From Deltaproteobacteria bacterium RIFCSPHIGHO2_02_FULL_40_28 (lineage in GTDB: Bacteria > UBA10199 > 2-12-FULL-40-28), in the NCBI GenBank assembly GCA_001798135.1, contig MGRJ01000022.1, positions 12,979-76,978 of the forward strand: 64,000 nucleotides of DNA, read 5' to 3'. The notes under the pieces are model-generated. The model saw only the letters and a list, made by a program, of their open reading frames with translations, had not been told where the DNA came from and did no database searches. A program made the translations under genes and the position numbers. Shown here one piece after another: positions 528 through 34,592 of this stretch (the first letter of the stretch is position 1; the number at the start of each line of letters is the position of its first letter).

Positions 528-1625
528 ATGCTTAAACAAACACCTTTGTATGAAGTTCATAAAAAACTAGGAGGCCGAATTGTAGAATTTGGTGGTTGGG
601 AAATGCCCGTTCAATATTCGGGTATTATGGAAGAACACCGTGCAGTACGCAAAGCTTGTGGCCTGTTTGATATCAGTCACATGGGGCAGGTTTTAATTAC
701 AGGCCCCAAGGCTTTAGAGCAGGTTAATTATTTAACCACTAACGATGTTTCTCAAATTCCAGATGGAAAATGTCAGTATACAGCAGCTCTTTATCCCGAT
801 GGAGGAGTTGTTGATGATCTCATTGTTTATCGGATAAATGCCGAAAATTTTTTGATTGTGGTTAATGCTTCCAATGACGAAAAAGATTTTAATTGGTTTG
901 TTCAAAACAATCGGTTTGATGCAAAAATCTTACACGTAAGTCATGCCTATGGTATGTTGGCTCTTCAAGGCCCTAAGGCCAAGGATGTGTTGGCTAATTT
1001 GGGTGGGGCTTTGATGACAACAACTCTTAATCCCTTCTCTTTTGTGGAAGAAAAGCTCATGGGTATTTCTTGTATTATTTCTCGTACAGGTTATACAGGT
1101 GAAGATGGTTTTGAATTTTTACTTTCATCAGATAAAGTTGTTGATTTATGGAATAAAATAATTGAGGCAGGGCGACCTTTTGGCTTACTCCCCATTGGTT
1201 TAGGAGCAAGAGATACTTTGCGGTTAGAAGCGGCTCTTTCTCTTTATGGTCATGAGATTGATCAAAAAATTAATCCCTTAGAGGCCAGACTTGCTTGGAT
1301 TGTCAAACTTGACAAACCTGATTTTATCGGCAAATCATCTTTGCAAAAAATTGAAAAAGAAGGCATTACAAGGCACTTGGTTGGTCTTTCTATGATAGAT
1401 GCAGGTATCCCAAGAGCTGGATATGAAGTGTATGAGGGAGAAAAAAAGTTGGGTTGGATCACCAGCGGTACTTTTTCTCCCAGTTTAGGTAAGGCTATAG
1501 CCTTAGCCTTAATTGAAGGGACAAAAAAATCAGGGGATGAACTTTTAGTTGGTATTAGAAAACAAAAGGCAAGAGCACAGATTGTGAACTTACCATTTTA
1601 TCGTAAGAAGAAGGGAAAGATATGA
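528..1625 (+). CDS. gcvT: Glycine cleavage system aminomethyltransferase (T protein)
   Basis: GcvT transfers the methylene group from the aminomethyl-lipoyl H protein to THF, releasing ammonia. At 365 residues the length is normal. The N-terminus has the family's TPLYEVHKKLGGRIVEFGGW, and downstream come SRTGYTGEDGFE and ARDTLRLEA, which line the folate site. The C-terminal beta-barrel domain is present (GWITSGTFSPSLGKAIALA). The stop codon overlaps the gcvH start, so gcvT-gcvH are translationally coupled. No strong Shine-Dalgarno lies just before the ATG. A paralogous folate-binding protein, YgfZ, lies at 39332-40204. Confidence 0.96.
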   Translation: MLKQTPLYEVHKKLGGRIVEFGGWEMPVQYSGIMEEHRAVRKACGLFDISHMGQVLITGPKALEQVNYLTTNDVSQIPDGKCQYTAALYPDGGVVDDLIVYRINAENFLIVVNASNDEKDFNWFVQNNRFDAKILHVSHAYGMLALQGPKAKDVLANLGGALMTTTLNPFSFVEEKLMGISCIISRTGYTGEDGFEFLLSSDKVVDLWNKIIEAGRPFGLLPIGLGARDTLRLEAALSLYGHEIDQKINPLEARLAWIVKLDKPDFIGKSSLQKIEKEGITRHLVGLSMIDAGIPRAGYEVYEGEKKLGWITSGTFSPSLGKAIALALIEGTKKSGDELLVGIRKQKARAQIVNLPFYRKKKGKI

Positions 1626-2008
1626 CAATTCCACAAGATCTTAAATATTCCAAAGAACACGAATGGGTGCGTGTTGAAGGACAAATAGCTACCATTGGTG
1701 TAACAGATTTTGCCCAAGAACAATTAGGTGATATTGTGATGGTAGAGTTGCCCTCTGAAGGTACTATTTTAACAAAGGACGAATCTTTTGGGGTGGTAGA
1801 ATCGGTTAAATCAGTGAGTGATGTGTTTGCCCCTGTGTCTGGAAAAATTGTTGAAGCCAATGATCCTTTAACCGATAGCCCTGGAATTATGAATGAAGAT
1901 TGCTATGGGGAAGGATGGATTGTTAAAGTAGAAATGAGTGACCCAAAAGAGTTGGATAGTTTGATGGATGCTAAAGCCTATCAGGCTTGCCTTGCCGAGG
2001 GGCATTAA
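1622..2008 (+). CDS. gcvH: Glycine cleavage system H protein
   Basis: This 128-residue lipoyl carrier shuttles the aminomethyl intermediate between P, T and L proteins. The lipoylated lysine is Lys63 in the context GVVESVKSVSDVFAPVSG. The length and the N-terminal pattern (YSKEHEWVRVEG) are typical of the family. The start overlaps the gcvT stop by four bases (ATGA type). No gcvL/lpd gene for the L protein is in the window, so dihydrolipoamide dehydrogenase must come from elsewhere in the genome. Confidence 0.97.
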   Translation: MTIPQDLKYSKEHEWVRVEGQIATIGVTDFAQEQLGDIVMVELPSEGTILTKDESFGVVESVKSVSDVFAPVSGKIVEANDPLTDSPGIMNEDCYGEGWIVKVEMSDPKELDSLMDAKAYQACLAEGH

Positions 2009-2015
2009 TCGGTTT

Positions 2016-3359
2016 ATGAGATATTTGCCTCATACTGAAAATGAAATTACCGAGATGCTTGCCACCATTGGTGTAAAAAGTGTTGAAGAACTTTTTCGCA
2101 GTATTCCTCCCAGTCTTAAATTAAATCGAGAACTCAACATTCCTGAAGCTCTTTCTGAAATGGAGCTGCGCAAGGCTTTGCTTCAACTTTCCAAAAAAAA
2201 TAAAACCATCCGTGATACCATTACTTTCTTGGGAGGGGGGGCTTATCATCACTACTTGCCATCAGCCATTTCTCAACTAATTAATCGTGGAGAATTTTTT
2301 ACAGCTTATACCCCCTATCAACCAGAAGTAAGTCAAGGAACCTTGCAGTCTCTTTTTGAATATCAAACCATGGTGTGTGAATTAACAGGCATGGATGTTG
2401 CTAATGCCTCTCACTACGATGCCTCCACAGCTTGTGCCGAAGCCCTTTTAATGGCTCATCGAATTACCAAAAAGAAAAAAGCTCTCGTTGCAAGATCCCT
2501 GCATCCCCAGTATCGCAAGGTTTTAAAAACCTACCTGGTGCGTTTTGGTTACGAAATTGAGGAAATAAAATACAACAAAGATGGCACTCTCGATTGGGAA
2601 GATTTTAATGCAAAGCTTAACTCGGATGTGGGAGCTGTGATGGTTGGCTCTCCTAATTTTTTTGGTGTGATTGAAGATTTGGAAAAAATTGGAGTAAAAA
2701 CCAAGGCCAATCATTCAATTTATATTACCGTAGCCTCTGAGCCGCTTTCTTCAGCACTGCTTGCAACTCCCGGAGGTGTTGGTGCCGATATCGCTGTAAT
2801 GGAAGGACAGTCTTTTGGGGTAGGGCTTAATTTTGGTGGCCCCTTTCTTGGAATGTTTGCAACCAGAGCCCAGTATATTCGCAGTATGCCGGGGCGTGTG
2901 GTTGGAGAAACAGTTGATGAAGAAGGCGCCCGTGGTTATGTTTTAACCTTTTCTACACGCGAGCAACACATTCGTCGTGAAAATGCCACGTCTAATATTT
3001 GCACAAATCAGGGTTTATGTGCCCTGATGGCCTGTATTTATTTGTCTCTGATGGGCAAAGAGGGTTTGGTGGAGTTAGCTCAAATTAATTTATCGCGTGC
3101 AACCTATGCTAAGGAAAAATTAGCCAGCATAAAAAGGGTGAAGCCCCTATTTAATGCTCCCATCTTTAATGAATTTGTACTTCATATTCCTAATGCCAGT
3201 AGTGTTCTTGAAAAATTAAAAACAAAAAATATTTTTGGGGGCATTCTTTTAGAACGTTATTACGAAGAAATGAAAGATGCCGTTCTTGTGTGTGTAACCG
3301 AGATGAATTCTAAAAAAGAAATTGATACGTTTTGTGAAGAATTGGGACGTGCTCTATGA
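2016..3359 (+). CDS. gcvPA: Glycine dehydrogenase (decarboxylating) subunit 1
   Basis: This is the N-terminal half of the two-subunit P protein, 447 residues, which with GcvPB decarboxylates glycine. I chose ATG 2016 (protein MRYLPHTENEITEML) because this matches the family N-terminus. An in-frame ATG 48 bases upstream lies inside gcvH and adds 16 unrelated residues. Family segments FLGGGAYHHYLPSAI and YTPYQPEVSQGTLQSLFEYQ are clear. The stop overlaps the gcvPB start by four bases. Like other split P proteins, this subunit lacks the PLP lysine, which is on GcvPB. Confidence 0.96.
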   Translation: MRYLPHTENEITEMLATIGVKSVEELFRSIPPSLKLNRELNIPEALSEMELRKALLQLSKKNKTIRDTITFLGGGAYHHYLPSAISQLINRGEFFTAYTPYQPEVSQGTLQSLFEYQTMVCELTGMDVANASHYDASTACAEALLMAHRITKKKKALVARSLHPQYRKVLKTYLVRFGYEIEEIKYNKDGTLDWEDFNAKLNSDVGAVMVGSPNFFGVIEDLEKIGVKTKANHSIYITVASEPLSSALLATPGGVGADIAVMEGQSFGVGLNFGGPFLGMFATRAQYIRSMPGRVVGETVDEEGARGYVLTFSTREQHIRRENATSNICTNQGLCALMACIYLSLMGKEGLVELAQINLSRATYAKEKLASIKRVKPLFNAPIFNEFVLHIPNASSVLEKLKTKNIFGGILLERYYEEMKDAVLVCVTEMNSKKEIDTFCEELGRAL

Positions 3360-4840
3360 AAACTTTCAATGAACAAACCATTTTTGAAATTTCTTCATCA
3401 GGCCGTAAGGGATATTCTCTTCCTAAAACAGAAGTGCCCCAGGTTAACCCTGACGAAGTGATTCCAAAGGCTTTTTTAAGAAAAACAAAAGCCAAACTTC
3501 CCGAAGTATCTGAATTTGATGTGGTAAGACACTTTACCCGTTTATCGCAGTGGAATTTTAGCATCGATACCGCTTTTTATCCTTTGGGTTCTTGCACCAT
3601 GAAGTACAACCCAAGAATTAACGAAGAAGTGGCTCGTTTTCCTGGTTTTGCTCTTTCTCATCCCTATCAAGATGAAAAAACCATGCAGGGGAGCTTGCAG
3701 TTGATGCATGAACTTCAAAATTACCTGTGTGAGATTTCCGGAATGGATTTTTGCACTTTGCAACCTGCAGCGGGTGCCCATGGCGAATTTACCGGACTTT
3801 TAATGATTCGCTCTTACCATGAATCCAGGGGTAATCCACGCACGAAGGTGATTATTCCAGATTCAGCTCATGGAACAAACCCTGCTTCTGCTGCCATTTG
3901 TGGTTACCAAGTTGTGACAGTTAAAACAGGCAAGGATGGTATTGTTGTTCCTGAAGAGTTAGCGCCTCTTTTGGATAATGAAGTGGCTTGTTTAATGCTT
4001 ACCAACCCTTCCACCATTGGTTTGTTCGAAAAAAATATCCAAAAAATTGCAGACCTCTTGCATTCAAAAGGCGCTCTTTTATATTGTGATGGGGCTAACA
4101 TGAATGCCTTGATGGGAGTGGCTAGGCCGGGAGATATGGGTGTTGATTGCATGCATTATAATTTGCACAAAACTTTTACAACTCCCCACGGTGGGGGAGG
4201 GCCAGGGGCTGGGCCTGTGGTAGTCAAAAAAATCTTGGAACCTTTTTTGCCTGTACCTGTGATTGTAAAAGAAGGCGACACTTATCGATTAGAGACCAAT
4301 TGCCCCCAAAGTATTGGGCGAGTACGTGCTTTTTTTGGAAATTTTGGAATGTTTGTTCGAGCCTATACTTACATTCGTGAATTAGGCCCCGATGGTATTC
4401 GCAAAACTTGTGAAATGGCAGTTCTTAATGCCAATTATTTACGAGCTCTTTTAAAAGATCATTTAACGTTAGCTTACGAGGCCGATAGTTTGCACGAAGC
4501 CATTTTTACAGATAAATTTTTGAAAGATTATTCTACAGGTAAGGTTACTAAAGATGGTCGTCCCATTCCTTTAAAAACTTTGGACATTGCAAAGAGGCTT
4601 ATTGATTATGGTTTTCATCCTCCCACAGTTTATTTTCCATTGATTGTTTCAGGATCTCTTATGATTGAACCCACTGAAACCGAAAACAAGCAAACCCTCG
4701 ATGCCTTTGCCGAAACTGTCAAAAAAATTCTTGCTGAAGCTAAAACAACCCCTACACTTTTAACCGAAGCGCCCCATACCACTCCTGTTCGCAGGCTTGA
4801 TGAAGTAAAAGCCGTTCGCGAACCAAAACTACGCGCTTAA
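3356..4840 (+). CDS. gcvPB: Glycine dehydrogenase (decarboxylating) subunit 2
   Basis: This is the PLP-bearing subunit of the two-part P protein, 494 residues. The cofactor lysine is Lys272 in NLHKTFTTPHGGGGPG. Other family blocks include GSCTMKYNPRINE near the N-terminus and DGANMNALMG before the lysine. It is the last gene of the gcvT-gcvH-gcvPA-gcvPB operon, with ATGA overlaps at two junctions. A perfect hairpin follows and separates it from the convergent ATPase gene. Confidence 0.96.
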   Translation: MKTFNEQTIFEISSSGRKGYSLPKTEVPQVNPDEVIPKAFLRKTKAKLPEVSEFDVVRHFTRLSQWNFSIDTAFYPLGSCTMKYNPRINEEVARFPGFALSHPYQDEKTMQGSLQLMHELQNYLCEISGMDFCTLQPAAGAHGEFTGLLMIRSYHESRGNPRTKVIIPDSAHGTNPASAAICGYQVVTVKTGKDGIVVPEELAPLLDNEVACLMLTNPSTIGLFEKNIQKIADLLHSKGALLYCDGANMNALMGVARPGDMGVDCMHYNLHKTFTTPHGGGGPGAGPVVVKKILEPFLPVPVIVKEGDTYRLETNCPQSIGRVRAFFGNFGMFVRAYTYIRELGPDGIRKTCEMAVLNANYLRALLKDHLTLAYEADSLHEAIFTDKFLKDYSTGKVTKDGRPIPLKTLDIAKRLIDYGFHPPTVYFPLIVSGSLMIEPTETENKQTLDAFAETVKKILAEAKTTPTLLTEAPHTTPVRRLDEVKAVREPKLRA

Positions 4841-4920: not shown

Positions 4921-6075
4921 TTATAATTCCGGAATTACTGATTCTAGAAAATATTCAAAAGGACAAACTAAAATATCACCAATTTTTTGAGATTTGTCTC
5001 CTTGAAAGACAATGTATTTTTCTCCCTTTTTTCCAGTGAGATGTTCGAAGGCTTGTAGGCCTTTAACTTGTTTTTTTTCTATCTTTGTTCCAGCCTTAAC
5101 CTCAATGAGCACTATTTTTTTTTCAGTTTGTATTACTAAATCTACTTCATTTCCTGTATCAGTGCGAAATGAAAAAAAACGCCAATCTTTTTTTGTTGCT
5201 TGAGCATAAAAATAACACTGAAGGATGAACCAGTGCTCAAATAAATGTCCCAATTCTGTGGGGGTAAAATCTTTTTGTACTAAACCCAAAATGGCGTGGC
5301 GTACACCCAGATCGAATAAAAAAATACGATCGCGTTGGCTAATTCTACGATGATCAGAAGCTGATGTAAAAGGAGAAAGACGTACTGCTAGGAGTGTATC
5401 TTCAAGTACAGAATAAAATCTTCTGATCGTATCTTTGGTAACTTCTGAGTCACTTGAAATTTTGGAGTAGTTAATCCATAAGCCACTTTGCCCCGCTGCT
5501 AATTCCAAAAAGCGGGTATAAGCTCCCACATTGCGTGTAAGACTTTCGGCCTGAATTTCTTCTCTGATGTAAATGTTTGTGTAAGATTTAAGCATTTCCA
5601 AACCAGTTAAATCATCTAAGTAAATTCCAGGAAGGCTTCCTCGTGTGAGACATTTGTGTAAGTCAAATTTTTCTTTAAGTTCCCAGTACAATAAAGGAGA
5701 AAGGTGTTCTTCAATAATACGACCAGGCAAAAGATTAGCACCCCCTCGTTTCAATTTGCGTGCACTCGAGCCAGTTAAAATAAAACGCGCTGTATATTTT
5801 TCATCCACCAGGAATTGGATTATGTTGAGAAGCGAAGGGATGCGTTGAATTTCATCAATAAGAATAAGTTTGGGCTGATGGAGGGCCAACAATTCTCTTT
5901 TTACTAATCCGGGGTCTTTAAGATATTTGAGGTATTGTTCTTCATCTGCAAGGTTTAAAATATAATCTGGACTTAAGCTTTTGACTAAAGTGGATTTTCC
6001 TACTTGGCGTGGACCAAGCAATAAAACACTTTTTTTATTGGCTTTTAAGCGTTTTTCTATGATTCTGGATAGCAT
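4921..6075 (-). CDS. AAA-family ATPase with C-terminal DUF4143 domain (copy 1)
   Basis: The protein has an N-terminal P-loop (GPRQVGKST) and Walker B (LILIDEIQRIP), as in the AAA_14 family. Its C-terminal DUF4143-type region contains EVDLVIQ...VLIEVKAG, which resembles a PD-(D/E)xK nuclease core (E-V-D then E-x-K). The ATG at 6075 (MLSRIIEKRL, 384 aa) is preferred over an in-frame TTG at 6090, because that codon lies inside the dyad at 6077-6103. The cellular role of this widespread family is not established. It stands alone between a terminator and a divergent B12 riboswitch. A diverged second copy is at 26129-27337. Confidence 0.85.
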   Translation of the reverse strand: MLSRIIEKRLKANKKSVLLLGPRQVGKSTLVKSLSPDYILNLADEEQYLKYLKDPGLVKRELLALHQPKLILIDEIQRIPSLLNIIQFLVDEKYTARFILTGSSARKLKRGGANLLPGRIIEEHLSPLLYWELKEKFDLHKCLTRGSLPGIYLDDLTGLEMLKSYTNIYIREEIQAESLTRNVGAYTRFLELAAGQSGLWINYSKISSDSEVTKDTIRRFYSVLEDTLLAVRLSPFTSASDHRRISQRDRIFLFDLGVRHAILGLVQKDFTPTELGHLFEHWFILQCYFYAQATKKDWRFFSFRTDTGNEVDLVIQTEKKIVLIEVKAGTKIEKKQVKGLQAFEHLTGKKGEKYIVFQGDKSQKIGDILVCPFEYFLESVIPEL

Positions 6076-6076
6076 A

Positions 6077-6110
6077 TAATCTATTTTCAATGGAAATAGA
6101 TTAATGTCAA
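6077..6110 (-). promoter_or_regulatory. Promoter with overlapping dyad in front of the DUF4143 ATPase
   Basis: Reading the minus strand, a consensus -35 TTGACA (6105-6110) is followed by an AT-rich stretch. That stretch holds a perfect 10-base inverted repeat (6077-6086 and 6094-6103, 7-base centre) ending one base before ATG 6075. Any -10 must lie inside the dyad (AAAATA at 17-base spacing), so a protein bound there would block transcription. No Shine-Dalgarno is visible. Operator function is inference. Confidence 0.5.
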
Positions 6111-6143: not shown

Positions 6144-6164
6144 TATTTTTTGGAAATGACTAAG

Positions 6165-6350
6165 CCAGCCCCATCAGGTTCACCCATGGTGGGTGATGAA
6201 AAGGGAAGATGGTGTAAGTCCATCACGGTCCCGCCGCTGTAACTCTAACCCTTCGGGGTAAAACCACAAAAGTCACTGTCCGCCAAAGGCGAATGGGAAG
6301 ACGGTTTTAAGAGAAGTCAGAAGACCTGCCTGAGACAAGGTTACCTTGTA
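6165..6350 (+). promoter_or_regulatory. Cobalamin (adenosylcobalamin-class) riboswitch
   Basis: The segment contains the conserved core in the right order: GGGTGATGAAAAGGGAAG, GGTGTAAGTCC, GGTCCCGCCGCTGTAA, an AAGTCACTG/GGGAAGACGG arm, and the B12 box AAGTCAGAAGACCTGCC at 6314-6330. After the box, a short palindrome ACAAGGTTACCTTGT (6335-6349) lies just before the Shine-Dalgarno GCGAGG and ATG 6366. The switch could act by occluding translation initiation; there is no U-run to suggest a terminator. Riboswitches of this class repress downstream genes when B12 is plentiful. It sits directly in front of three lipoprotein genes. Confidence 0.93.
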
Positions 6351-6365
6351 ATATGCGAGGACATC

Positions 6366-8018
6366 ATGCGGTCTTTTGTTCTTATTTTTATTTTCTTTTT
6401 CTGCCTTACGGCCTGCCAAAATACGGGTTTTGTTTTTGATTCTGAGCCAGGTTCTGATGATGACGTCCCAGACACTAACGAAAGTCCTACTCCTTTAAAT
6501 CCCATAGATCCCACAACAAGTAGTGTTTCTCTTTTGTCTCTTAATTTGGAGCAAGAAGGAGAAGTTTTTATTCTTGAGGTGGGTCAAACCCAAGACTTAA
6601 GTTTTCAGGTTCAATTTTCTGATGGCACCATTGAAAATTCAATCACTTCCATTCTCAACTGGCCCAATGGAAGTACAGAAACCATTTTATGGCAAAGTGA
6701 TAACACAACTGTTGCATCAGTAGATCAGGGAAGGGTTACAGCCTTGCACGAAGGAGTAGCCTTAATTGGTGCAAGCGTAGGTGAAAAAAATATCCTTGTT
6801 GATTTTGTGGTCAATCCTCAAACTTCATCTGAAAAAACTCTCACACAGCTTTCTTTTTACCAAGACTCTTATTCACAAACAAGTTCTCGCAGTTTTTTAA
6901 TAACACTGGATGGAAGTTATTCTGACCAAACTAGTTTTTCCAACCAGTATGCCGATAATGTTTCTTTAAGATTGGGATGCTCACTTTTACTTTCAAGTAG
7001 TCGTCCTGCAGTGGCCGAAATTACTCAAGCGGGTGCTGTTATTCCTAAAGCAAATGGGGCAACAAACTTGATTGCTGCTTGCGGCAGTGTGCAGACCTTA
7101 AGTGTTTTAACAATTTCTGGTTTAGATGTCGATGCTCCTTTTGCAGGAACAGAAACCCTGGAATCACTTGCTATTGTTGGGTTAGAGGATGAACAAACAT
7201 CCGGAAGCGAAGCTTCCCTTTTTTGTGATGTGACTTTTAATGGCGGGACTGTTTCAAATGCTTCTGGAGATTTTGTTTCACCCGGAGGACAAATTTATTC
7301 CATCATTTGGTCTAGTTCCGATGAAAGTATTTTTTCTATCGATGAAAATACTGTGAATTTTCTGGTTTATGGTGAAGCCACCCTTCAAGCTGAAGTTGAT
7401 GGCATGAGTACGACACAAGAGATTGCTGTAAAAATGTCTACCGAATGGGCTGCAACCAGTACAGATTATTTTCTTTCCAGTAATGATGAATTTACCCTCA
7501 CAGAGGAAACTAATGGTGGTTACGGTTCCTATCCTAATGCTCTCTATGGTGCACCCTGGACTGGAGGGACCGATGTAGTTTCTTTAGGCGGTGGTGGATC
7601 CATTCTTATTCATCTTCAGGATTATGTTGTGGTCGATGGAGTGGGTGTTGATTTTACTGTTTTTGAAAATCCTGTTTTAGCCGATGTACTTTTTGCTGAA
7701 CGTGCACGAGTTTTGGTGAGTGAAAACGGAACAGATTTTTTTGAATTTTCTTGTGATGAATGGAATACAGCAGAAAATTATCCAGGATGTGCAGGAGTTA
7801 ATCCTGTAAATGCGCTGGCTAGTCCCTTTAATCCTTCTATTTCTGGAGGAGATAGTTTTGATTTAGCCGATGTTGGTTTAACATCGGTTTCTTATATTTT
7901 AATTGAAGACTTAAATACCTGCGTAGAAGGTGATCCCACTTATCCCTTATGTGGAGTCAGTTATACTCAGGGTTTTGATTTAGATTCTCTGGTGATCATT
8001 AATGGTCAACAGGAATAA
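6366..8018 (+). CDS. B12-riboswitch-controlled lipoprotein with Ig-like (BIG2-like) domains
   Basis: The 550-residue precursor has a lipoprotein signal (MRSFVLIFIFFFCLTAC, lipobox LTAC), so the mature protein starts at Cys17 followed by an acidic linker. The middle has Ig-like repeats of BIG2 type (ILWQSDNTTVASVDQGRVTAL; IIWSSSDESIFSIDE). The last ~170 residues form a distinct domain with VSLGGGGSILIHL, DGVGVDFTVFENP, CAGVNPV and GGDSFDLADVGL. I recall similar C-terminal patterns in cell-surface proteins near B12-uptake genes; that link is from memory. It is the first gene after the cobalamin riboswitch and is followed 17 bases later by another lipoprotein. Likely role: surface protein for B12 capture; binding itself is not shown. 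Confidence 0.8.
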   Translation: MRSFVLIFIFFFCLTACQNTGFVFDSEPGSDDDVPDTNESPTPLNPIDPTTSSVSLLSLNLEQEGEVFILEVGQTQDLSFQVQFSDGTIENSITSILNWPNGSTETILWQSDNTTVASVDQGRVTALHEGVALIGASVGEKNILVDFVVNPQTSSEKTLTQLSFYQDSYSQTSSRSFLITLDGSYSDQTSFSNQYADNVSLRLGCSLLLSSSRPAVAEITQAGAVIPKANGATNLIAACGSVQTLSVLTISGLDVDAPFAGTETLESLAIVGLEDEQTSGSEASLFCDVTFNGGTVSNASGDFVSPGGQIYSIIWSSSDESIFSIDENTVNFLVYGEATLQAEVDGMSTTQEIAVKMSTEWAATSTDYFLSSNDEFTLTEETNGGYGSYPNALYGAPWTGGTDVVSLGGGGSILIHLQDYVVVDGVGVDFTVFENPVLADVLFAERARVLVSENGTDFFEFSCDEWNTAENYPGCAGVNPVNALASPFNPSISGGDSFDLADVGLTSVSYILIEDLNTCVEGDPTYPLCGVSYTQGFDLDSLVIINGQQE

Positions 8019-8035
8019 ATCTTAAAGGAGAAATT

Positions 8036-9568
8036 ATGGTTGCCCCTTTAGTTTATTTGGCCCTTGCGGCCGTGCCTTTTATTGCGAGTTGTATGAAAAA
8101 CGAGGAAGAAGGAGAAACGCCTACTCCCGTTGGTCCAGTAACAAATCCCGAAGGAGATACACCCGAAGCTTCCCTAGACACAGGGGTAGATAGTGGAGGA
8201 ACAACTCCAACAGGTGATGCATATGTTGACGCTGCTATTCCCTCAAATGTAGGCACTTTTGATATCGAAGGGAGTGTTTTTTCTTCACTGTGGGTTAACA
8301 ATGAAGGTGAAGAGCAGTTTTATTATGTGCACAAAGTGGGAGGAACTACCGTTGATGATCCAACAACTCCCGAGCCGGATCCTGTTACTGTTCCCCAAGA
8401 ATTTTACTTGGGCCAATGCAGCACTCTTCCCATTTCTCCAGATCAACAAACAGCTATTTGTGATGATTTAGGTTATGCACTTCCGTTTTCAGATCAAATT
8501 GCAGTTTCTTCCCATGTAAAAAATTATGAGATTGATGGGGAAGGCGTCATTGTGGTGCCTTACAATAGTGTTGGCCAGGACATGATAGAGGTTGCTAGCA
8601 CCGATGCTATCACGCTTCAAGACTCAGCCGATCATCAAGGTGTGTTTGTGTATGCCACTGATGGAACTTTGTATGCCAATCATAATCTGGCATCAATGAC
8701 CACAGACTCTGGCTGGAAACTCTCCGGTGCTGAAGATAGTGCTTATATTTCTGGCCAAAACGAATTGGCTGTTAGTTTTTCCCAGTTTGCAAGTGGAGCA
8801 AAAGCGGGTGATGAGAATGTAATCACAAATCAATACAACATGGCCTATCCACCAGGAGCTATTGCCTATCTTAACATTGAAAATCCCCTCGATCAAAATC
8901 CAAATGTGCGTGTAGTTGAATTAACCGATGGTGTTGATTATTTCTACAATCCAACAGCCATGCATTTAAAGGATGGTCGCTTGGAAGTTGTGGCTAACTT
9001 AGGTACAGGAGATGGAGTTCCAGTTAAACTTTCTATTGATCCAAGACAAAATGATCTTTCTCTTTCAGGAGCCTTAACGATTGTTACCGAAGGCATTCCT
9101 GTTGGAGGTGCTTACAATGCCACAGCTACAGAATCGGGGGATTTTTTATTAACAGGAGCCACTGGTTTTGGTGAAGAAAATACGGGTAGCCTTACTCGCA
9201 TTGCCTCTGATGCCAGTGTGATACCCTATAACGATCTGCCAAATGATTTTACTTTTGTGGCAGGTGCAGAAGGTTTTCATGACGTGGAAGGTCAAGAGGC
9301 CCTTGGAAATTATGGTGTGGTTGTTTCTGGTCAATACGAATACGTTCCAGGAGAAGCAAGCGACGCCTCTCTTTGGTGGTATTACAATGGAAATTGGACA
9401 GATTTAGCTTTTGAAGATGCCACTGGTGCCCAAGGATTTGCGCTTCCTCCAGTTGTGATGGAGGCGAGTGCTTATGGCAAACAAGGGTCACTTATTTTAG
9501 CTCCTGTTTCAGGAATTCGCACCGAAACAAGCCCAGTAACCCGTGTGAATGTCTTTGCAACGAATTAA
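8036..9568 (+). CDS. B12-riboswitch-controlled lipoprotein, second gene
   Basis: This is a 510-residue protein with the lipoprotein signal MVAPLVYLALAAVPFIASC (lipobox IASC, Cys19), then a low-complexity acidic, Thr/Pro-rich linker. The rest is rich in beta-strand-like, Gly/Asp-rich segments with no family I recognise. The overall look is a multi-bladed or multi-domain beta surface protein. A strong Shine-Dalgarno (AAAGGAG) precedes ATG 8036, and only 17 bases separate it from the previous gene, so it is co-transcribed behind the riboswitch. It ends 10 bases before the next start and within that gene's ribosome-binding region. Confidence 0.78.
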   Translation: MVAPLVYLALAAVPFIASCMKNEEEGETPTPVGPVTNPEGDTPEASLDTGVDSGGTTPTGDAYVDAAIPSNVGTFDIEGSVFSSLWVNNEGEEQFYYVHKVGGTTVDDPTTPEPDPVTVPQEFYLGQCSTLPISPDQQTAICDDLGYALPFSDQIAVSSHVKNYEIDGEGVIVVPYNSVGQDMIEVASTDAITLQDSADHQGVFVYATDGTLYANHNLASMTTDSGWKLSGAEDSAYISGQNELAVSFSQFASGAKAGDENVITNQYNMAYPPGAIAYLNIENPLDQNPNVRVVELTDGVDYFYNPTAMHLKDGRLEVVANLGTGDGVPVKLSIDPRQNDLSLSGALTIVTEGIPVGGAYNATATESGDFLLTGATGFGEENTGSLTRIASDASVIPYNDLPNDFTFVAGAEGFHDVEGQEALGNYGVVVSGQYEYVPGEASDASLWWYYNGNWTDLAFEDATGAQGFALPPVVMEASAYGKQGSLILAPVSGIRTETSPVTRVNVFATN

Positions 9569-9578
9569 AGGAGTTTTA

Positions 9579-10835
9579 ATGAAAAACCTATTTTATCTTT
9601 TGTTACTCATTACAAGTTTAATAGCCTGCGGATCGCTTAAACAGCAATCTGCAGCTGATGAAGGAGAAGCCGAAGAGGCTGGGGATATTATTCCTGATCC
9701 AGATATTGACGTGAGTGAAGAGGAAATTATCCAGGAAATCCTCTTTTTATTTGGAACAGATTATACTTCTTCTGGTCAATTGTATGTAACTGATGCCGAT
9801 CCCATTACAGAACTTTTAAATTCTGGGCTTGCAAGTCTTGGCTCTTCTGCTGTGATTCGTTTTTTTGATGGGTTGCTTTATGTTCTGCATGATGGGTATT
9901 CCTTTTTTAGTTCAGATAATGTGCAAATTATCGATTCGGCAAACAGTTTTGCAACCCAAAATACGTGGTCCACAGGAAATAGCACTAACCCGCACGACCT
10001 TGTAGTTGTTGAAAATACCGCTTATATTACTCTTTATGATGCTGGCAGTGACCCCTCTAATTTAGCTGACAATGGACATCCTGGAGATCTTATTGTGATG
10101 GATTTGGCTACTGGCAGCATTACAAAAAGAATGAGTTTTTATGATTATCTCAATGTTGATGCCGATATGATGGCTAGAGCTGATCAGATGGTTGTTGTCG
10201 GAAACAGGCTTTATGTGTGCATCCAGGATTTTGGAAGTGATTTTACTCCTAATGCCCCGGGGAAGTTGGCTGTTATTGATCTGGCCACTAACGAGATTGA
10301 AACGGTTTATACTTTAACAGGATGGAATCCTGTAGATATTGTTTATTCAGAAACGGCCAATAAGCTTTTTGTTGCCCAGTCGGCAGGGTATGGAGCTTAT
10401 GATTTTGCAGCCACAGATCATGGAGGAATTGAAATTGTTCCCTTGAGCAGCCCAACCGCCACCATTTTTTTAACCGATGATATTGCCGATGGGTATATCG
10501 AGCGTCTGGTTGTTTCTGAAGGAAGAGTTTTTGCTGTAGCTTCAGAATTGCAATTTGCTCCTGTGTTTTTGTTTTTATCGGATGTGTGGGTGATGGATGA
10601 AAATAACGAGGCAGAAGCTGGTCTTTCTGTTTTTAGTGCAGATAATGCCGATATTCGTGATATGGTTGCAGATGGCAATGGTTCCTTGTGGATTGCACGA
10701 AGAACGATCGAAGTAGGCAGTGGTGATGCAACAGATCCTCACGTAGATGTGCTTAACAGCACAACGGGAGAAAGTATCGCATCGAATTTAACTTCCGACG
10801 TACCAATTACATCGATGGCAATCGGACAATTTTAG
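9579..10835 (+). CDS. Beta-propeller lipoprotein, BtuG-like candidate, third gene of the B12 operon
   Basis: I chose ATG 9579 (MKNLFYLLLLITSLIAC, lipobox LIAC) because AAAGGAG lies six bases upstream; a start at 9549 would add ten residues before a normal signal peptide. The 418-residue protein has YVTN/YncE-like propeller blades: FFDGLLYVLHDG, VVENTAYITLYD, GKLAVIDLATNEIETVY, ETANKLFVAQSAGYG, LWIARRTIEV. In Bacteroides, BtuG is a propeller lipoprotein that binds B12 at the surface next to BtuB. The fold class plus the riboswitch make the same job plausible here, but no TonB receptor is in the window. Binding function is inference. Confidence 0.78.
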   Translation: MKNLFYLLLLITSLIACGSLKQQSAADEGEAEEAGDIIPDPDIDVSEEEIIQEILFLFGTDYTSSGQLYVTDADPITELLNSGLASLGSSAVIRFFDGLLYVLHDGYSFFSSDNVQIIDSANSFATQNTWSTGNSTNPHDLVVVENTAYITLYDAGSDPSNLADNGHPGDLIVMDLATGSITKRMSFYDYLNVDADMMARADQMVVVGNRLYVCIQDFGSDFTPNAPGKLAVIDLATNEIETVYTLTGWNPVDIVYSETANKLFVAQSAGYGAYDFAATDHGGIEIVPLSSPTATIFLTDDIADGYIERLVVSEGRVFAVASELQFAPVFLFLSDVWVMDENNEAEAGLSVFSADNADIRDMVADGNGSLWIARRTIEVGSGDATDPHVDVLNSTTGESIASNLTSDVPITSMAIGQF

Positions 10836-10879: not shown

Positions 10880-12040
10880 ATGCAAAAAAAACCTCTTCTC
10901 ATCATTTTTTTCGTCATTTTTATTGATCTGTTAGGCTTTGGCATTGTGATTCCCATCTTGCCTTATTACGCGGCTTCCTTTGGGGCTACAGCTACAAATC
11001 TTGGGTGGCTCATGATGTGTTATTCGGCCATGCAGTTTCTTTTTTCTCCTTTCTGGGGAGGGCTTTCAGATCGTATTGGACGAAGACCTGTCATTCTTAT
11101 TTGTTTGGTGGGGATTGGTAGTTCCCTTGTTTTGTTGGGTATGGCCAAGTCCATGGCATGGCTTTTTCTTGCTCGTCTTTTAGGGGGATTTTTCGGAGCC
11201 AACATTTCGGCCGCCACGGCTTATATTGCCGATACGACCACCACGGAAAATCGTACCAAGGGTATGGGTATTATTGGAGCTGCTTTTGGTTTGGGTTTTT
11301 TATTTGGTCCTGCTTTAGGTGGAGTGCTTTCTCGTACCAGTTATGGTTTTCCTGCTCTTGTTGCTGCTGGTATTGCAGGGCTTAATTTTATTTTTGCTTT
11401 CTTTTTTTTAAAAGAACCCCGTTTAAACGAAAAAGAAAGAGCTACTCATCGAAGTCACCTTTCTTTATTTTTTATACGTCAAACCTTGCAAAAACAAAAA
11501 ATAGCCTGGCCCATTTTGTTTTTTTTTCTAACAACCTTGGGTATTGCTCAATTAGAAACTGCTTTTGGTCTTTTTTTGCTCAAACGTTTTCATTTGGATG
11601 CCTACCATGCAGGATTAATTTTGGCTTTTATAGCTTTGGTGATGGTTTTTATTCAAGGAGGAGCCATTGGTTCCTTGGTTAAAAAATTTGGTGAAAAAAA
11701 TCTCATTCGAGGCGGTTCTTTGTTAATGACTCTTGGTTTAGCTCTTGTGGCTGTGAGTTTTTTATTTAATCTTTCACTTGTTGGTTTTTTTATCCATGCC
11801 CTGGGTTATGCTGTGGTTAATCCTTCTCTTGCCGGCCTGGTTTCATCGGAAACCACGGGAGATGTACAGGGTTCTACCATGGGAGTTTATCATTCGGCAG
11901 GGAGTTTAGGACGTATTGTAGGCCCTCTTTTAGCCGGGAGACTTTTTGATTCTTTTGGTGAATCTTATCCGTTTCTTGTTGCTTGTCTCTTTTTTGTGCT
12001 GGTTTCATTTTTTGCTTCAGTCAAATTATCTCAAAAATAA
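10880..12040 (+). CDS. Major facilitator superfamily transporter (DHA1/TetA-like)
   Basis: This is a 386-residue inner-membrane protein with about 12 hydrophobic segments. The DHA1 opening is FIDLLGFGIVIPILPYY, and the MFS motif A GGLSDRIGRRPVIL follows TM2. The second-half repeat shows LVKKFGEKNLIRGG. Such proteins export drugs or other small molecules by proton antiport; the substrate here cannot be read from sequence. It follows the B12-controlled lipoprotein genes by 44 bases but appears to have its own promoter, so a link with B12 is uncertain. Confidence 0.88.
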   Translation: MQKKPLLIIFFVIFIDLLGFGIVIPILPYYAASFGATATNLGWLMMCYSAMQFLFSPFWGGLSDRIGRRPVILICLVGIGSSLVLLGMAKSMAWLFLARLLGGFFGANISAATAYIADTTTTENRTKGMGIIGAAFGLGFLFGPALGGVLSRTSYGFPALVAAGIAGLNFIFAFFFLKEPRLNEKERATHRSHLSLFFIRQTLQKQKIAWPILFFFLTTLGIAQLETAFGLFLLKRFHLDAYHAGLILAFIALVMVFIQGGAIGSLVKKFGEKNLIRGGSLLMTLGLALVAVSFLFNLSLVGFFIHALGYAVVNPSLAGLVSSETTGDVQGSTMGVYHSAGSLGRIVGPLLAGRLFDSFGESYPFLVACLFFVLVSFFASVKLSQK

Positions 12041-12127: not shown

Positions 12128-12655
12128 ATGCTGAATTTTCAGGAATATAAAAAACAAATATGTGCCATTTTAATTGTGGTTTTGCTTGTTTTTTTTGGTA
12201 TTGCAACCTGTCTCAGAAAAACCGGGGATAATAGAGGTTTTGCACCTACACAACCCATTCCTTTTAGTCATAAAATACATGCGGGAGATAACCAAATTCC
12301 TTGTCAGTATTGTCATACAGGAGCCGATGAATCGCGTCATGCCACTATTCCCCCCATGAATGTATGCATGAACTGTCATAAAGTTGTAAAAACAGAGAGC
12401 CCCTTCATTCAAAAAATGGCTGAGATGTATCAAAAAGGTGAGCCTATCGAGTGGGTTCGGGTTCATGATCTTCCCGATCATGCTTATTTTTTCCATAAAA
12501 GACATATTCAGGTGGGAATTGAATGTTCTACGTGTCATGGAGCTGTAGAAACAATGGATAAAATAAAACAGGAAAAAATTCTCAACATGGGTTTTTGTGT
12601 AGATTGCCATAAGACAAATAAAGCACCCACAGATTGCGTGGTTTGCCATCAGTAA
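12128..12655 (+). CDS. actA: Alternative complex III subunit ActA, pentaheme cytochrome c
   Basis: The 175-residue protein has one N-terminal membrane anchor (residues ~11-28) and five CxxCH heme sites (CQYCH, CMNCH, CSTCH, CVDCH, CVVCH), the number expected for ActA. It sits in the periplasm and accepts electrons from the quinol-oxidising core. It opens the actABCDEF operon, which replaces the bc1 complex. No clear -35/-10 pair was found in the 87 bases before it. Confidence 0.93.
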   Translation: MLNFQEYKKQICAILIVVLLVFFGIATCLRKTGDNRGFAPTQPIPFSHKIHAGDNQIPCQYCHTGADESRHATIPPMNVCMNCHKVVKTESPFIQKMAEMYQKGEPIEWVRVHDLPDHAYFFHKRHIQVGIECSTCHGAVETMDKIKQEKILNMGFCVDCHKTNKAPTDCVVCHQ

Positions 12656-12668
12656 TGTGTAGGGAATT

Positions 12669-15662
12669 ATGAGTAAGAAAAAAGAAAAATTCTGGGGCAG
12701 TTTGGAACAAGCAGAAGATGTGGGGCGTGAGTTTATCTCTCCTCCAGAAAAACAAGTTGTCAGTGAAATTGATCGTCGTGATTTTTTAAAGTACATGGGC
12801 GCGGGTATGTTACTGGCTACAATGGCTTGTACCCGCCGTCCTATTGAAAAAATTATTCCTTATGTCAATCGTCCTTTGGAGGTGACTCCTGGTGTTGCTA
12901 ATTGGTATGCCTCTACTTGCACAGGGTGCGCAGCTTCTTGTGGGGTTTTAGTTAAAACCCGCGAAGGCAGGCCTATTAAACTTGAAGGCAATACTGATCA
13001 TCCCGTTAATCAAGGTGCTTTGTGTATTCGTGGGCAAGCTTCCTTAATTGATCTTTATAACCCCGACCGACTTGATGGCCCCATTGAAATGAAACGTGAT
13101 GTCACGCAAAAAGGTCAAATTTCATGGGCGGTTCTTGATCGCAAAATTCAGGTGAAGCTTGATGAAGTAAAAGCTCGTGGCCAATCTGTTTATGTTTTTA
13201 CAGGGCTTGCCAATAGTCCTGCTACTTCAAAATTAATTGAAGAATTTTTAACTGTTTATCCTGGTCGTCACGTAACCTACGATGCATCCTTCCCTGCAGA
13301 AATTTTAGATGCTTTTGAACAATCTTATGGTTCTCGTTCTCTCCCTCGGTATCGTTTTGATCAAGCACGTACCATTCTTTCTTTTGGAGCTGATTTTTTG
13401 GGAACTTGGGTTTCACCTGTTGAATTTGCCAAAGGTTTTTCTAAGGGCAGAAGAGTTGAAAGTGGATCTATGTCTCGCTTTGTGGCCATTGAACCTGCCT
13501 TAACTCTTACAGGCACTAACGCCGATTTGTATTTTCCTGTAAAGCCTGGGGATGAGCTTTTAGTTGCTTATGCTTTAGCTCATGAAATCCTAGTAAAAAA
13601 CGCCTTAGGCAATGGAATTTATCATACCCTTCTTACTCCTTATTCAATTGAAAATGTAGCAGCCCAGGTGGGAATTAAAGCAGCCATTTTGAAAAAAATT
13701 GCTCAAAATTTACTGGATCATCGTGGCAGTGGACTTATTGTAGGTGGTAATCCAGGTGCTAAAAACGCTGCAGCCCTTCAAGTGGTGGTTAATCTTCTTA
13801 ATTCAGCTCTAGAAAATGATGGTGCTACTCTTGATTGGTCTTTATCTCCCAGTTTAGTTTCTACATCTCTTTCTGAATTAGTTGATTTGGTTTCTGAAAT
13901 GAAAAAAGGCAATGTGGGTGCCTTATTTATGTTGGATAGCAATGCTGTTTTTTCTCTTCCACGTGAATTAGGTTTTACCGAAGCCTTGAAAAAAGTTTCT
14001 TTGTTTGTCGATTTTTCAAATCAACTCAATGAAACTGCTGTTCTCGCTGATTTTGTAGCTCCTCAAACTCACTTTTTAGAATCCTGGGGAGATAGAGCAG
14101 CCTATAAGGGAGTATTGAGTCTGGTGCAGCCAACCATTGCTCCTTTAATGAACTCACGTTCTTTTGAAGATTCGTTGCTTGTGTGGAAAGGTGCTACAAC
14201 GAGTTTTTATGATTATTTAAGAAATTTTTGGCAAAATGAAATTTATCCAAAAGCTGCGACGGGTGTGGGGTTTGAAGCTTTTTGGCAAGAAGCTCTCCAA
14301 AAAGGAGTTGTTGATTATCGAGCCGGCGATGATTCGAAGGCCAAACTTGCTAGTAGCAGAAGTGTGGGAGGGCAAGCTTTAGGTACTTTGCCTGCAACTA
14401 TAAAGTCGCAAGAAGGTTTTCAGTTATCGCTTATGCCATCGCTTCAAGTGCTTGATGGACGTTTTGCAAATAATGGATGGCTTTACGAGCTACCCCATGC
14501 CTTGTCTAAGGTTACTTGGGATAATACTCTTTCAATTTCTCCTGAGGCAGCCAAAGATTTAGGTGTTGTGCAAGGGGAAGTGGTGCGTATTGAAGGAGAT
14601 GGCTTTAGTTTGGAACTCCCTATTTTTGTTCAACCCAAATTATATGGAAAAAGTTTGATGACTGAAGTTGGATATGGACGCACGGTTATTGGTCGATTTG
14701 GTGAAAAGGTTGGTGTGAATACTTTTCCAGCACAAAAACTGGTCAATCAAAATATTGTGTGGCAGGGGATTACCATTCATTCTATTTCTAAAACAGGTAT
14801 TCGTGAAAAATTAGCTATAACCCAGGGAAGTTTTAATACTCATGGCAGACCTGTTGTGCGTGATGCAAGTTACTCTGAATTTTTAAAAGATCCCAAAGCA
14901 GGAAACGAAGATTCTACCCATTTGATGACTCTTTGGACCAAGCACGAATATAAGGGGCATCGATGGGGTATGGCCATTGATACTAGTCTTTGCATTGGTT
15001 GTGGAGTTTGTCAGATTGGATGCCAAGCTGAAAATAATGTGCTTGTTGTTGGTAAAGATCAAGTGAGTATTGGTCGTGAAATGAGTTGGATTCGTATCGA
15101 TCGTTACTTCAAAGGAGATACAGCTAATCCCGAAGTTGTTTATCAACCCATGCTTTGTCAACATTGTGAAAATGCACCCTGCGAAACAGTTTGCCCTGTG
15201 TTGGCCACCGTTCATAGCGATGAAGGTCTTAACCAAATGATTTATAACCGTTGTGTAGGAACGCGGTATTGTTCTAATAACTGCCCTTACAAGGTGCGTC
15301 GCTTTAATTATTTTGATTATGCAGAACAAATTCACAAACCAACACACCTGGCTCTTAATCCTGATGTAACCGTGCGAAGCCAGGGAGTGATGGAGAAGTG
15401 TTCTTTTTGCACTCAACGTATTCGTGAAGTAAAAGATACGGCCAGAACAGAAAAAAGAGTTGTGAAAGATGGGGAAATTAAAACAGCTTGTCAGCAAAGT
15501 TGCCCAACCGATGCCATTGTTTTTGGTGATATCAATGATGCAAATTCGATGGTGTTACGTTGGCAGCAAGGCCCACGGGCCTATCGGGTTTTAGAAGAGG
15601 TTAATGCCTTGCCCCAGATAGCGTACATGACCAAGATTAGAAATCATGAGGAGACAACATAA
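12669..15662 (+). CDS. actB: Alternative complex III subunit ActB (molybdopterin-oxidoreductase-like plus 4Fe-4S ferredoxin domain)
   Basis: The 997-residue fusion is typical of ActB. The N-terminus has a Tat-like motif (DRRDFLKYMGAGM) for export, then CTGCAASCGVLVKTREGRP, as in the molybdopterin oxidoreductase family. In characterised ActB that domain holds no molybdenum. The last ~240 residues form a NrfC-like ferredoxin domain with cysteine groups CIGCGVCQIGC, CQHCENAPCETVC, CVGTRYCSNNC, CSFC and CQQSC, enough for several iron-sulfur clusters. It passes electrons from quinol to the cytochrome subunits. The actC start follows three bases after the stop. Confidence 0.95.
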   Translation: MSKKKEKFWGSLEQAEDVGREFISPPEKQVVSEIDRRDFLKYMGAGMLLATMACTRRPIEKIIPYVNRPLEVTPGVANWYASTCTGCAASCGVLVKTREGRPIKLEGNTDHPVNQGALCIRGQASLIDLYNPDRLDGPIEMKRDVTQKGQISWAVLDRKIQVKLDEVKARGQSVYVFTGLANSPATSKLIEEFLTVYPGRHVTYDASFPAEILDAFEQSYGSRSLPRYRFDQARTILSFGADFLGTWVSPVEFAKGFSKGRRVESGSMSRFVAIEPALTLTGTNADLYFPVKPGDELLVAYALAHEILVKNALGNGIYHTLLTPYSIENVAAQVGIKAAILKKIAQNLLDHRGSGLIVGGNPGAKNAAALQVVVNLLNSALENDGATLDWSLSPSLVSTSLSELVDLVSEMKKGNVGALFMLDSNAVFSLPRELGFTEALKKVSLFVDFSNQLNETAVLADFVAPQTHFLESWGDRAAYKGVLSLVQPTIAPLMNSRSFEDSLLVWKGATTSFYDYLRNFWQNEIYPKAATGVGFEAFWQEALQKGVVDYRAGDDSKAKLASSRSVGGQALGTLPATIKSQEGFQLSLMPSLQVLDGRFANNGWLYELPHALSKVTWDNTLSISPEAAKDLGVVQGEVVRIEGDGFSLELPIFVQPKLYGKSLMTEVGYGRTVIGRFGEKVGVNTFPAQKLVNQNIVWQGITIHSISKTGIREKLAITQGSFNTHGRPVVRDASYSEFLKDPKAGNEDSTHLMTLWTKHEYKGHRWGMAIDTSLCIGCGVCQIGCQAENNVLVVGKDQVSIGREMSWIRIDRYFKGDTANPEVVYQPMLCQHCENAPCETVCPVLATVHSDEGLNQMIYNRCVGTRYCSNNCPYKVRRFNYFDYAEQIHKPTHLALNPDVTVRSQGVMEKCSFCTQRIREVKDTARTEKRVVKDGEIKTACQQSCPTDAIVFGDINDANSMVLRWQQGPRAYRVLEEVNALPQIAYMTKIRNHEETT

Positions 15663-15665
15663 GGC

Positions 15666-17033
15666 ATGGAATCAAATGCTAACTTATTAAATCGAGAATC
15701 CCTGATTACGCCGCAAAGAAGTTATGCTGATGTTAGTCGTGATGTGTGTAGGCCGCTCGAAAGTTTCCCAACAGGGCGTTGGTATGTTTGTTTGATGATT
15801 TCCCTGGGTGCGCTTTTAATTGGTGTGGTTGCTGGCTTTCCTCTTTTACGAGATGGTCTTGGAGTATTGGGTATTAACAATGTGGTGGCCTGGGGAACGT
15901 TTATTACCAACTTCGTGTTTTGGATTGGTATTGGTCATGCGGGCACTTTAATTTCGGCTATTTTGTTTTTATTTCGCCAAAGATGGCGAACGGCTGTTAA
16001 TCGGTCTGCTGAAGCCATGACTATTTTTGCCGTGATGACCGCGGGCATATTTCCTATTTTGCACACGGGTCGTCCTTGGTATGGTGCGTTCTGGCTTTTC
16101 CCTTATCCCAACCAAAGGCAACTTTGGGTTAACTTTCGCTCTCCTCTCGAATGGGATGTATGGGCTGTTTCTACTTATTTTACCATTTCACTGTTATTTT
16201 GGTACTTGGGATTAATCCCAGATATTGCCTCGGTGAGAGATCGAGCTAAAAATAAAATGCGCAAGTTGGTTTACACCATTCTTTCATTTGGATGGCGTGG
16301 AGGAGCCAGACATTGGAATCATTATGAGATGCTTTATCTTTTGCTGGCAGCCTTAAGTACACCCCTGGTTCTTTCTGTGCATAGTATTGTGAGTTTTGAT
16401 TTTGCGGTTTCTATTTTACCAGGTTGGCATACTACCATTTTTCCACCTTACTTTGTTGCAGGAGCCATTTTTTCTGGTTTTGCCATGGTTGTTACCTTGT
16501 TGGTGATTGCTAGAGAAGTTTTTAATCTTAAAGATTACATTACAACTTATCATTTAGAGAACATGAATAAAATTATGCTGCTTACCGGCATGATGGTTGG
16601 ATATGCCTACATCATGGAATTTTTTATCGCCTGGTATAGTGGTAATCTTTATGAGCGTTTTGCTTTTATCAATCGTGCTACCGGGCCTTTTGCTTGGGCT
16701 TATTGGATTATGATGAGTTGCAATGTGATTACTCCACAAATTTTTTGGTTTCGAAAATTACGCCGCTCTATTCCAATCATGTTTGTGGTTTCGCTGATCA
16801 TCAATGTGGGAATGTGGTTTGAGCGTTTTGTTATTATTGTTACTTCACTCCATCGTGATTACTTGCCTTCAAGCTGGGAATATTATGTTCCTACGCGTTA
16901 CGATTGGGCAATAACGCTGGGTAGTTTTGGTTTCTTTTTTACATTTTTCTTGTTGTTTTGTCGTGTACTGCCCACCGTTGCAATGTTTGAAGTAAAATCA
17001 ATAATGAAACCAGGTAAGGAGTCTTACAATTAG
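15666..17033 (+). CDS. actC: Alternative complex III subunit ActC (NrfD/PsrC family)
   Basis: This 455-residue integral membrane protein has about ten hydrophobic segments and is the quinol-binding subunit of alternative complex III. NrfD-family features include [19 protein letters not shown] and [18 protein letters not shown]. It starts three bases after actB and ends three bases before actD. ActF, later in the operon, is a related membrane subunit. Confidence 0.95.
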
Positions 17034-34550: not shown

Positions 34551-34563
34551 AATTATCTGAAAG

Positions 34564-34592
34564 TTATTAACTTTTTGAGATAGGAAAGACAA
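34564..34592 (-). promoter_or_regulatory. metH promoter
   Basis: On the minus strand TTGTCT (34587-34592), a 17-base spacer and TAATAA (34564-34569) lie 13 bases before ATG 34550, predicting a leader of about seven bases. It is back to back with the lexA promoter, with 16 bases between the two -35 boxes. No B12 riboswitch is seen here. Confidence 0.5.

Follow-up and report, generated by a model that had tools for sequence, protein, structure and literature searches.

What do three lipoprotein genes do behind a cobalamin riboswitch in a bacterium outside the Bacteroidetes? The question is raised by a 64,000-nucleotide stretch of DNA from Deltaproteobacteria bacterium RIFCSPHIGHO2_02_FULL_40_28 (contig MGRJ01000022.1, positions 12,979 to 76,978), called the window below, in which the riboswitch and the three genes form one operon. 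The operon very probably serves riboswitch-controlled capture of B12 (cobamides). Its third gene encodes a homologue of the B12-binding propeller BtuG, its first a relative of BtuH, and the genes for the transporter itself lie in a separate operon on another contig. A capture role had been proposed from the letters of the window alone (the original prediction); the riboswitch, the BtuG/BtuH homology and the genomic linkage all argue for it. The features are as follows.

6161-6347, forward strand: cobalamin riboswitch aptamer (RF00174; cmscan 95.7 bits, E = 1.4e-22)
6366-8018, forward strand: open reading frame 1 (ORF1), a BtuH-like lipoprotein of 550 residues (lipobox LTAC, Cys17; Big_2 domain and C-terminal domain)
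7485-8015, forward strand: BtuH-type C-terminal domain of ORF1 (residues 374-550; motif G-x-D-F-x-x-F-E-N; 32-row alignment A2)
8036-9568, forward strand: ORF2, third lipoprotein of the operon, 510 residues (lipobox IASC, Cys19)
9579-10835, forward strand: ORF3, a BtuG-like beta-propeller lipoprotein of 418 residues (lipobox LIAC, Cys17)
31062-34592, reverse strand: MetH, the B12-dependent methionine synthase, a consumer of the vitamin outside the operon (Met_synt_B12, E = 8.8e-50; B12-binding, E = 1.3e-21)

A riboswitch and three lipoprotein genes

The riboswitch match covers the whole model (positions 1-189 of 189), lies far above the curated cut-off of 31.5 bits and is the sole RF00174 match in the 2.16 Mb genome; a B12 box, AGTCAGAAGACCTGCC, can be read at about 6315-6331. 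The three genes behind it share its strand and are separated by 17 bases (ORF1-ORF2) and 10 bases (ORF2-ORF3), with AAAGGAG ribosome sites ahead of ORF2 and ORF3. The ORF3 start at 9579, behind its AAAGGAG, is preferred over the longest-frame start at 9549. The original prediction had read a B12 riboswitch and three co-directional lipoprotein genes with short gaps and strong ribosome sites, and the full-length aptamer, the lipoboxes and the spacing bear it out.

Only 18 bases separate the end of the aptamer from the start codon of ORF1. This interval holds no terminator-like site, and control is therefore more likely at translation. Folding of the leader RNA gave structure not above that of shuffles (z -0.94), so the translational mode is something that we infer.

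Homology with BtuG and BtuH

ORF3 is a BtuG homologue. A profile of its family (A1, 18 relatives), searched against the PDB, matches BtuG1 of Bacteroides thetaiotaomicron (8blw_B) at E = 6.7e-34 and the BtuG entries 8ptf and 8ptd both at 1.2e-31; other propellers reach only about 4e-9 or worse, some 25 orders behind BtuG1. The fold points the same way. When a model computed from the window protein and 12 relatives was aligned to the PDB with VIA, the top 11 entries were all BtuG or BtuG-like (3dsm, 8blw_B, 8bn0 and others; Z 22.0-21.3); non-BtuG propellers come next, with Z no higher than 20.7, near the tie margin. The fold margin is small and the sequence margin large. Plain Foldseek with the same model gave no BtuG among the 50 matches listed; BtuG emerged on VIA re-ranking. 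The BtuG-like propeller foreseen in ORF3 is thus upheld by the structural comparison that had been suggested as its check.

At family level, ORF3 scores 23.2 bits with DUF5074 (PF16819), under the cut-off of 27.2, and 5 of the 18 family members match this model at E up to 1e-3; ORF3 is not filed under PF16819. A single-sequence search of the PDB with ORF3 found no chain. ORF3 probably works like BtuG. Its gene is not beside btuB in the window's genome or order, and it is therefore named a BtuG homologue, not a proven BtuG; btuB-adjacent BtuG-type genes are seen in sister families of the class (e.g. G015, G018, G023, G033).

ORF1 has the layout of BtuH: an immunoglobulin (Ig)-like stalk and a C-terminal domain of B12-binding type, homologous to BtuH2 and to the H-domain of BtuG1. 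Residues 71-140 form a Big_2 Ig-like domain (Pfam, E = 1.6e-6); BtuH2 likewise combines Ig-like domains with a cobalamin-binding domain (PMC8941943). The A2 profile of the ORF1 C-terminal domain has one PDB match, residues 432-498 of 8blw_B (E = 0.0085). This match falls inside the extra (H) domain of BtuG1, which is homologous to BtuH (PMC10404256). A VIA alignment of a model of the ORF1 domain (predicted local distance difference test, pLDDT, 71.5) pairs 132 residues with the same H-domain (8blw_B 413-660) and scores Z 10.8; the runner-up structure reaches Z 7.3. Plain Foldseek gave nothing significant (best 0.05, discoidin/CBM32-type), and BtuG1 emerged on VIA re-ranking. The single-sequence PDB search with ORF1 found only intimin Ig domains, and none of the 32 members of the domain family matches any Pfam family at E up to 1, DUF4465 included. 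These results agree with the prediction of a B12-linked C-terminal domain on an Ig-like stalk.

A tie to BtuH proper is provided by the protein at locus L107. It is a weak A2 match (E = 3.5e-6 for its genome, 8.6e-9 among 30 loci), sits at the end of a riboswitch-btuB-btuG-btuH operon, and matches BtuH2 (7biz) at 3.6e-57 and BtuG1 at 1.4e-67; it is plainly a BtuH of Bacteroidetes type. When the ORF1 domain is aligned to 7biz with profile A7, which includes L107 and whose E-value is thus not independent, the NAF of BtuH2 aligns with the invariant FEN of the ORF1-domain family. Asn399 and Phe401 of BtuH2 are B12 contacts, the former to the phosphate and the latter to the lower ligand (PMC8941943); these residue numbers were obtained by counting along the construct and agree with the published N-x-F spacing. 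The Asn399 equivalent is invariant (32/32 members), and Phe stands at +2 from it in 23 of 32, with Val in ORF1.

These residues also bear on the reading that the lipoproteins use BtuG/BtuH scaffolds to bind some other ligand needed at low B12, for example a cobamide precursor, a cobalt complex or a different nutrient. Several BtuH2 corrin contacts are without a clear counterpart in the ORF1 domain, as this reading would expect, but the Asn399 equivalent does not vary, the closest characterised relatives bind cobalamin (PMC8941943, PMC10404256, PMC12751083), and the genes are linked to btuB, btuF, btuC, btuD and cobalamin riboswitches across phyla. A ligand other than B12 is accordingly an improbable explanation.

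Fusions connect the two homologies. BtuGH of B. thetaiotaomicron joins a propeller and a BtuH-type domain in one protein (PMC12751083), and single-protein fusions of a propeller and an ORF1-type domain occur in KSB1, Calditrichota, Zixibacteria and Gemmatimonadota (L036-L039, L041, L042). In the phylum of locus L033, 37 of 296 genomes searched with A2 have a match. In one protein of this phylum (L106:5685-7406) an OmpA-like region forms the C-terminal part behind an ORF1-type domain, and no riboswitch was found in its surroundings; the domain may serve purposes besides B12 capture.

ORF2 has no Pfam family over cut-off and no NCBIfam match, and its profile has no meaningful match in the PDB. 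It does match the third lipoproteins of related riboswitch operons (L056, L062, L063; probability 96%, E = 2.2e-9) and, weakly, the ORF3 family (probability 81%). Its own family is narrow: 6 of 60 genomes hold a member (the five relatives are in G002, G006, G007, G025 and G028), each time beside an ORF1 homologue. ORF2 is likely a divergent propeller and a third binder.

The original prediction had suggested an independently evolved B12-capture module, in which the propeller and the C-terminal domain resemble BtuG and BtuH in fold only. Here it failed, as homology links ORF3 to BtuG and the ORF1 domain to BtuH. The sub-threshold DUF5074 score, the empty single-sequence search with ORF3 and the report of no BtuG homologue outside Bacteroidetes (eLife 2018, PMC6143338) would suit an independent origin; the strength and specificity of the A1 match to BtuG1, the tie by sequence of the ORF1 domain to a true BtuH, and the same operon partners and fusions, with intermediates in many phyla, would not. 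Independent origin is very improbable and already largely refuted. A recent transfer from Bacteroidetes was also considered and rejected. In a midpoint-rooted tree of 50 propellers, those of the class form their own clade (14 rows, support 100/100), apart from the 36 others, among them propellers of KSB1, Zixibacteria, Calditrichota, Chlorobiota and Bacteroidota; an old divergence is therefore favoured. As judged from profiles, folds and tree, the operon is an ancient relative of BtuG/BtuH.

The literature places these proteins more narrowly. Besides the BtuG study just cited, one paper describes lipoprotein-capped transporters as seemingly exclusive to Bacteroidetes (PMC10404256), and another reports BtuH in Bacteroidetes and in three Firmicutes (PMC8941943). 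A literature search combining BtuG with non-Bacteroidetes phyla gave nothing relevant. On present sequence evidence, the published confinement of BtuG (PMC6143338) and of capping (PMC10404256) to Bacteroidetes needs revising, at least at gene level; what is seen here is the genes, not capping.

Linkage to B12 uptake and the separate transporter

How regularly do such genes stand behind cobalamin riboswitches? Riboswitches were searched in 60 relatives irrespective of the genes behind them, and the ORF1 domain, the propeller and BtuB were then searched separately. The class set comprises 46 genomes, the window's own included; a gene was counted if it shared the riboswitch's strand and lay no more than 8 kb from it, and contig breaks lower the counts. 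At least one of ORF1 domain, propeller or btuB follows 42 of the 45 class riboswitches. Counted from the genes, the ORF1 domain is present in 40 class genomes and stands behind a riboswitch in 30 of them; for the propeller the figures are 17 of 24, and for BtuB 28 of 43. For three class riboswitches the 8 kb that follow contain no B12-uptake gene of those tested (L073:6056-6246, G017:C32:9860-10030, G017:C143:4760-4898).

The pattern extends to other groups. Among named genomes, 24 loci were found through the ORF1 domain alone, 17 of them testable for having enough upstream contig; a riboswitch stands upstream on the same strand in 15 of these (exceptions L045, L049). L045 lies on a contig labelled Bradyrhizobiaceae and its propeller is identical to one in G291, from the phylum of L033; this is probably a misbinned contig. 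Cobalamin riboswitches precede BtuH-like genes, often accompanied by BtuG-like propellers, in most genomes of the class that includes the window's organism, and also in genomes carrying the labels Myxococcota, Deltaproteobacteria, KSB1, Zixibacteria, Calditrichota, Gemmatimonadota, Fermentibacterota, Chlorobiota or Planctomycetota. Homologues usually standing without riboswitches or B12 genes would speak against a capture role; the counts favour it.

Related genomes also hold the lipoprotein genes near btuB and btuF, a linkage whose search had been proposed with the original prediction. In many sister families the complete operon, lipoproteins together with btuB-btuFCD-tonB, is kept: its order is riboswitch-btuB-ORF1 homologue-lipoprotein-btuF-btuC-btuD-tonB at L071 and riboswitch-propeller-btuB-propeller-ORF1 homologue-tonB at L069. 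Propeller paralogues also occur as a pair within one riboswitch operon in some genomes of the class, with btuB (L068, L069) or the ORF1 homologue (L059) between them.

In the window's genome the parts are separate. It encodes exactly one TonB-dependent receptor, BtuB (G000:C9:30331-32469), and one BtuF-type binding protein, adjacent on contig C9 in a cluster of btuB, btuF, btuC, btuD and a TonB-like gene (G000:C9, L077:6332-11772). The earlier observation that no TonB receptor adjoins the lipoprotein genes is true locally; the genome's sole TonB-dependent receptor is nevertheless this btuB, with btuFCD and tonB, on another contig. No riboswitch was detected ahead of it, even at E 1. Within the same order, the btuB genes of G001, G002, G004, G006 and G007 likewise have none detected upstream, while G003 carries a second one at this place; G005, where the contig ends, was left out. 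In this order the lipoproteins are split off from btuBFCD-tonB, usually keeping the only riboswitch.

This separation bears on whether the lipoproteins bind B12 without capping or directly feeding BtuB, as periplasm-facing proteins, as vitamin stores or on shed vesicles. Nowhere in the order are the three genes linked to btuB, and BtuJ of B. thetaiotaomicron acts on vesicles, not as a lid (PMC12751083); against this, propellers flank btuB in one operon in sister families (L068, L069), as in BtuBG lids. Such a role is unlikely.

A need for the vitamin is provided by MetH, whose presence had been noted from the first. CbiC and CobS, the only two biosynthesis families searched, were not found in the genome, which is rated 100% complete. 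With MetH present and these two not found, the organism therefore probably depends on imported B12.

The surrounding genes are of several kinds. A gene for a major facilitator superfamily (MFS) transporter (10880-12040, forward) starts 44 bases behind ORF3, and MFS genes with a near-identical start neighbour the lipoprotein operon at L056, L059 and L062 in varying orientation; the MFS gene is probably a conserved neighbour rather than an operon member. Upstream lie glycine cleavage genes (528-4840, forward), namely gcvT and apparently both gcvP subunits; at L059 a similar gcvP pair is directly upstream of the riboswitch. An AAA_14/DUF4143 ATPase gene (4921-6090, reverse) stands between the gcv genes and the riboswitch. 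Further on, 12128-17033 (forward) encodes a multihaem cytochrome, an iron-sulphur molybdopterin-type protein and an NrfD-like membrane protein, and looks like an alternative complex III cluster.

Proposed role and comparison with known systems

Several points weigh against B12 capture by this operon. The direct match of the ORF1 profile to BtuG1 is weak in E-value; with about 180 residues the ORF1 domain falls about 70 short of the BtuH2 domain (about 250), and the region that holds the corrin-ring contacts of BtuH2 (His476, Tyr510, Trp511, Trp577) is shorter in it and of uncertain alignment. Confidence in the ORF3 model is moderate (pLDDT 61.8), and the model does not settle the number of blades; fold and function of ORF2 rest on weak similarity; and the genome's btuB is outside the operon and free of a riboswitch.

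With these points taken into account, the capture operon would work as follows. When B12 is scarce, the riboswitch would permit translation of the operon. ORF3, ORF1 and ORF2 would sit in the outer membrane by their lipid anchors, where they would bind cobamides and pass them to the BtuB encoded on the other contig; import for use by MetH would then proceed through TonB, BtuF and BtuCD. With plenty of B12, cobalamin would occupy the aptamer and probably hide the ribosome site just behind it. Since the operon is split from btuBFCD-tonB in this order, only the capture layer would be governed in this way, and it is most likely the only uptake part under riboswitch control.

A wider reading is possible, though somewhat doubtful: B12 capture of BtuG/BtuH type might be an old and widespread trait of Gram-negative bacteria rather than a Bacteroidetes invention, uncoupled here so that B12 represses the capture layer only, and ORF2 might represent a further, undescribed class of B12-binding lipoprotein. 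What is new is a capture operon of BtuG/BtuH type that lies outside Bacteroidetes, is no longer coupled to its transporter and carries a third lipoprotein of unassigned type. A capture strategy reported almost only from Bacteroidetes would be spread over many other bacterial phyla; widespread "hypothetical surface lipoproteins" gain names and testable functions; and the locus offers a natural case of capture and transport regulated apart.

The known systems can be set beside the operon. DUF4465 (BtuJ) jellyrolls are secreted B12 binders, often beside PF16819 propellers (PMC13398666), and resemble the ORF1 domain in this neighbourhood; no member of the ORF1-domain family matches their model. 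The BtuBFCD-TonB uptake system is present as one complete btuB-btuF-btuC-btuD-tonB cluster, on another contig than the lipoproteins and with no detectable riboswitch. BtuH (BtuH2, 7biz; BtuG1 H-domain) differs from ORF1 in its stalk (PKD in BtuH, Big_2 in ORF1) and in its longer domain, with the corrin-contact region shortened in ORF1; shared are the lipoprotein nature, the Ig-like stalk, the cobalamin-binding-type C-terminal domain with the conserved Asn399 equivalent, and propeller fusions in both groups. BtuG (BtuG1, BtuG2 and BtuG3 of B. thetaiotaomicron; 8blw_B, 8bai, 3dsm) is about 13-16% identical to ORF3 in structural alignments and differs from it in host, in standing beside btuB and in the DUF5074 score; both are lipoprotein beta-propellers under cobalamin-riboswitch control, joined by profile and by fold.

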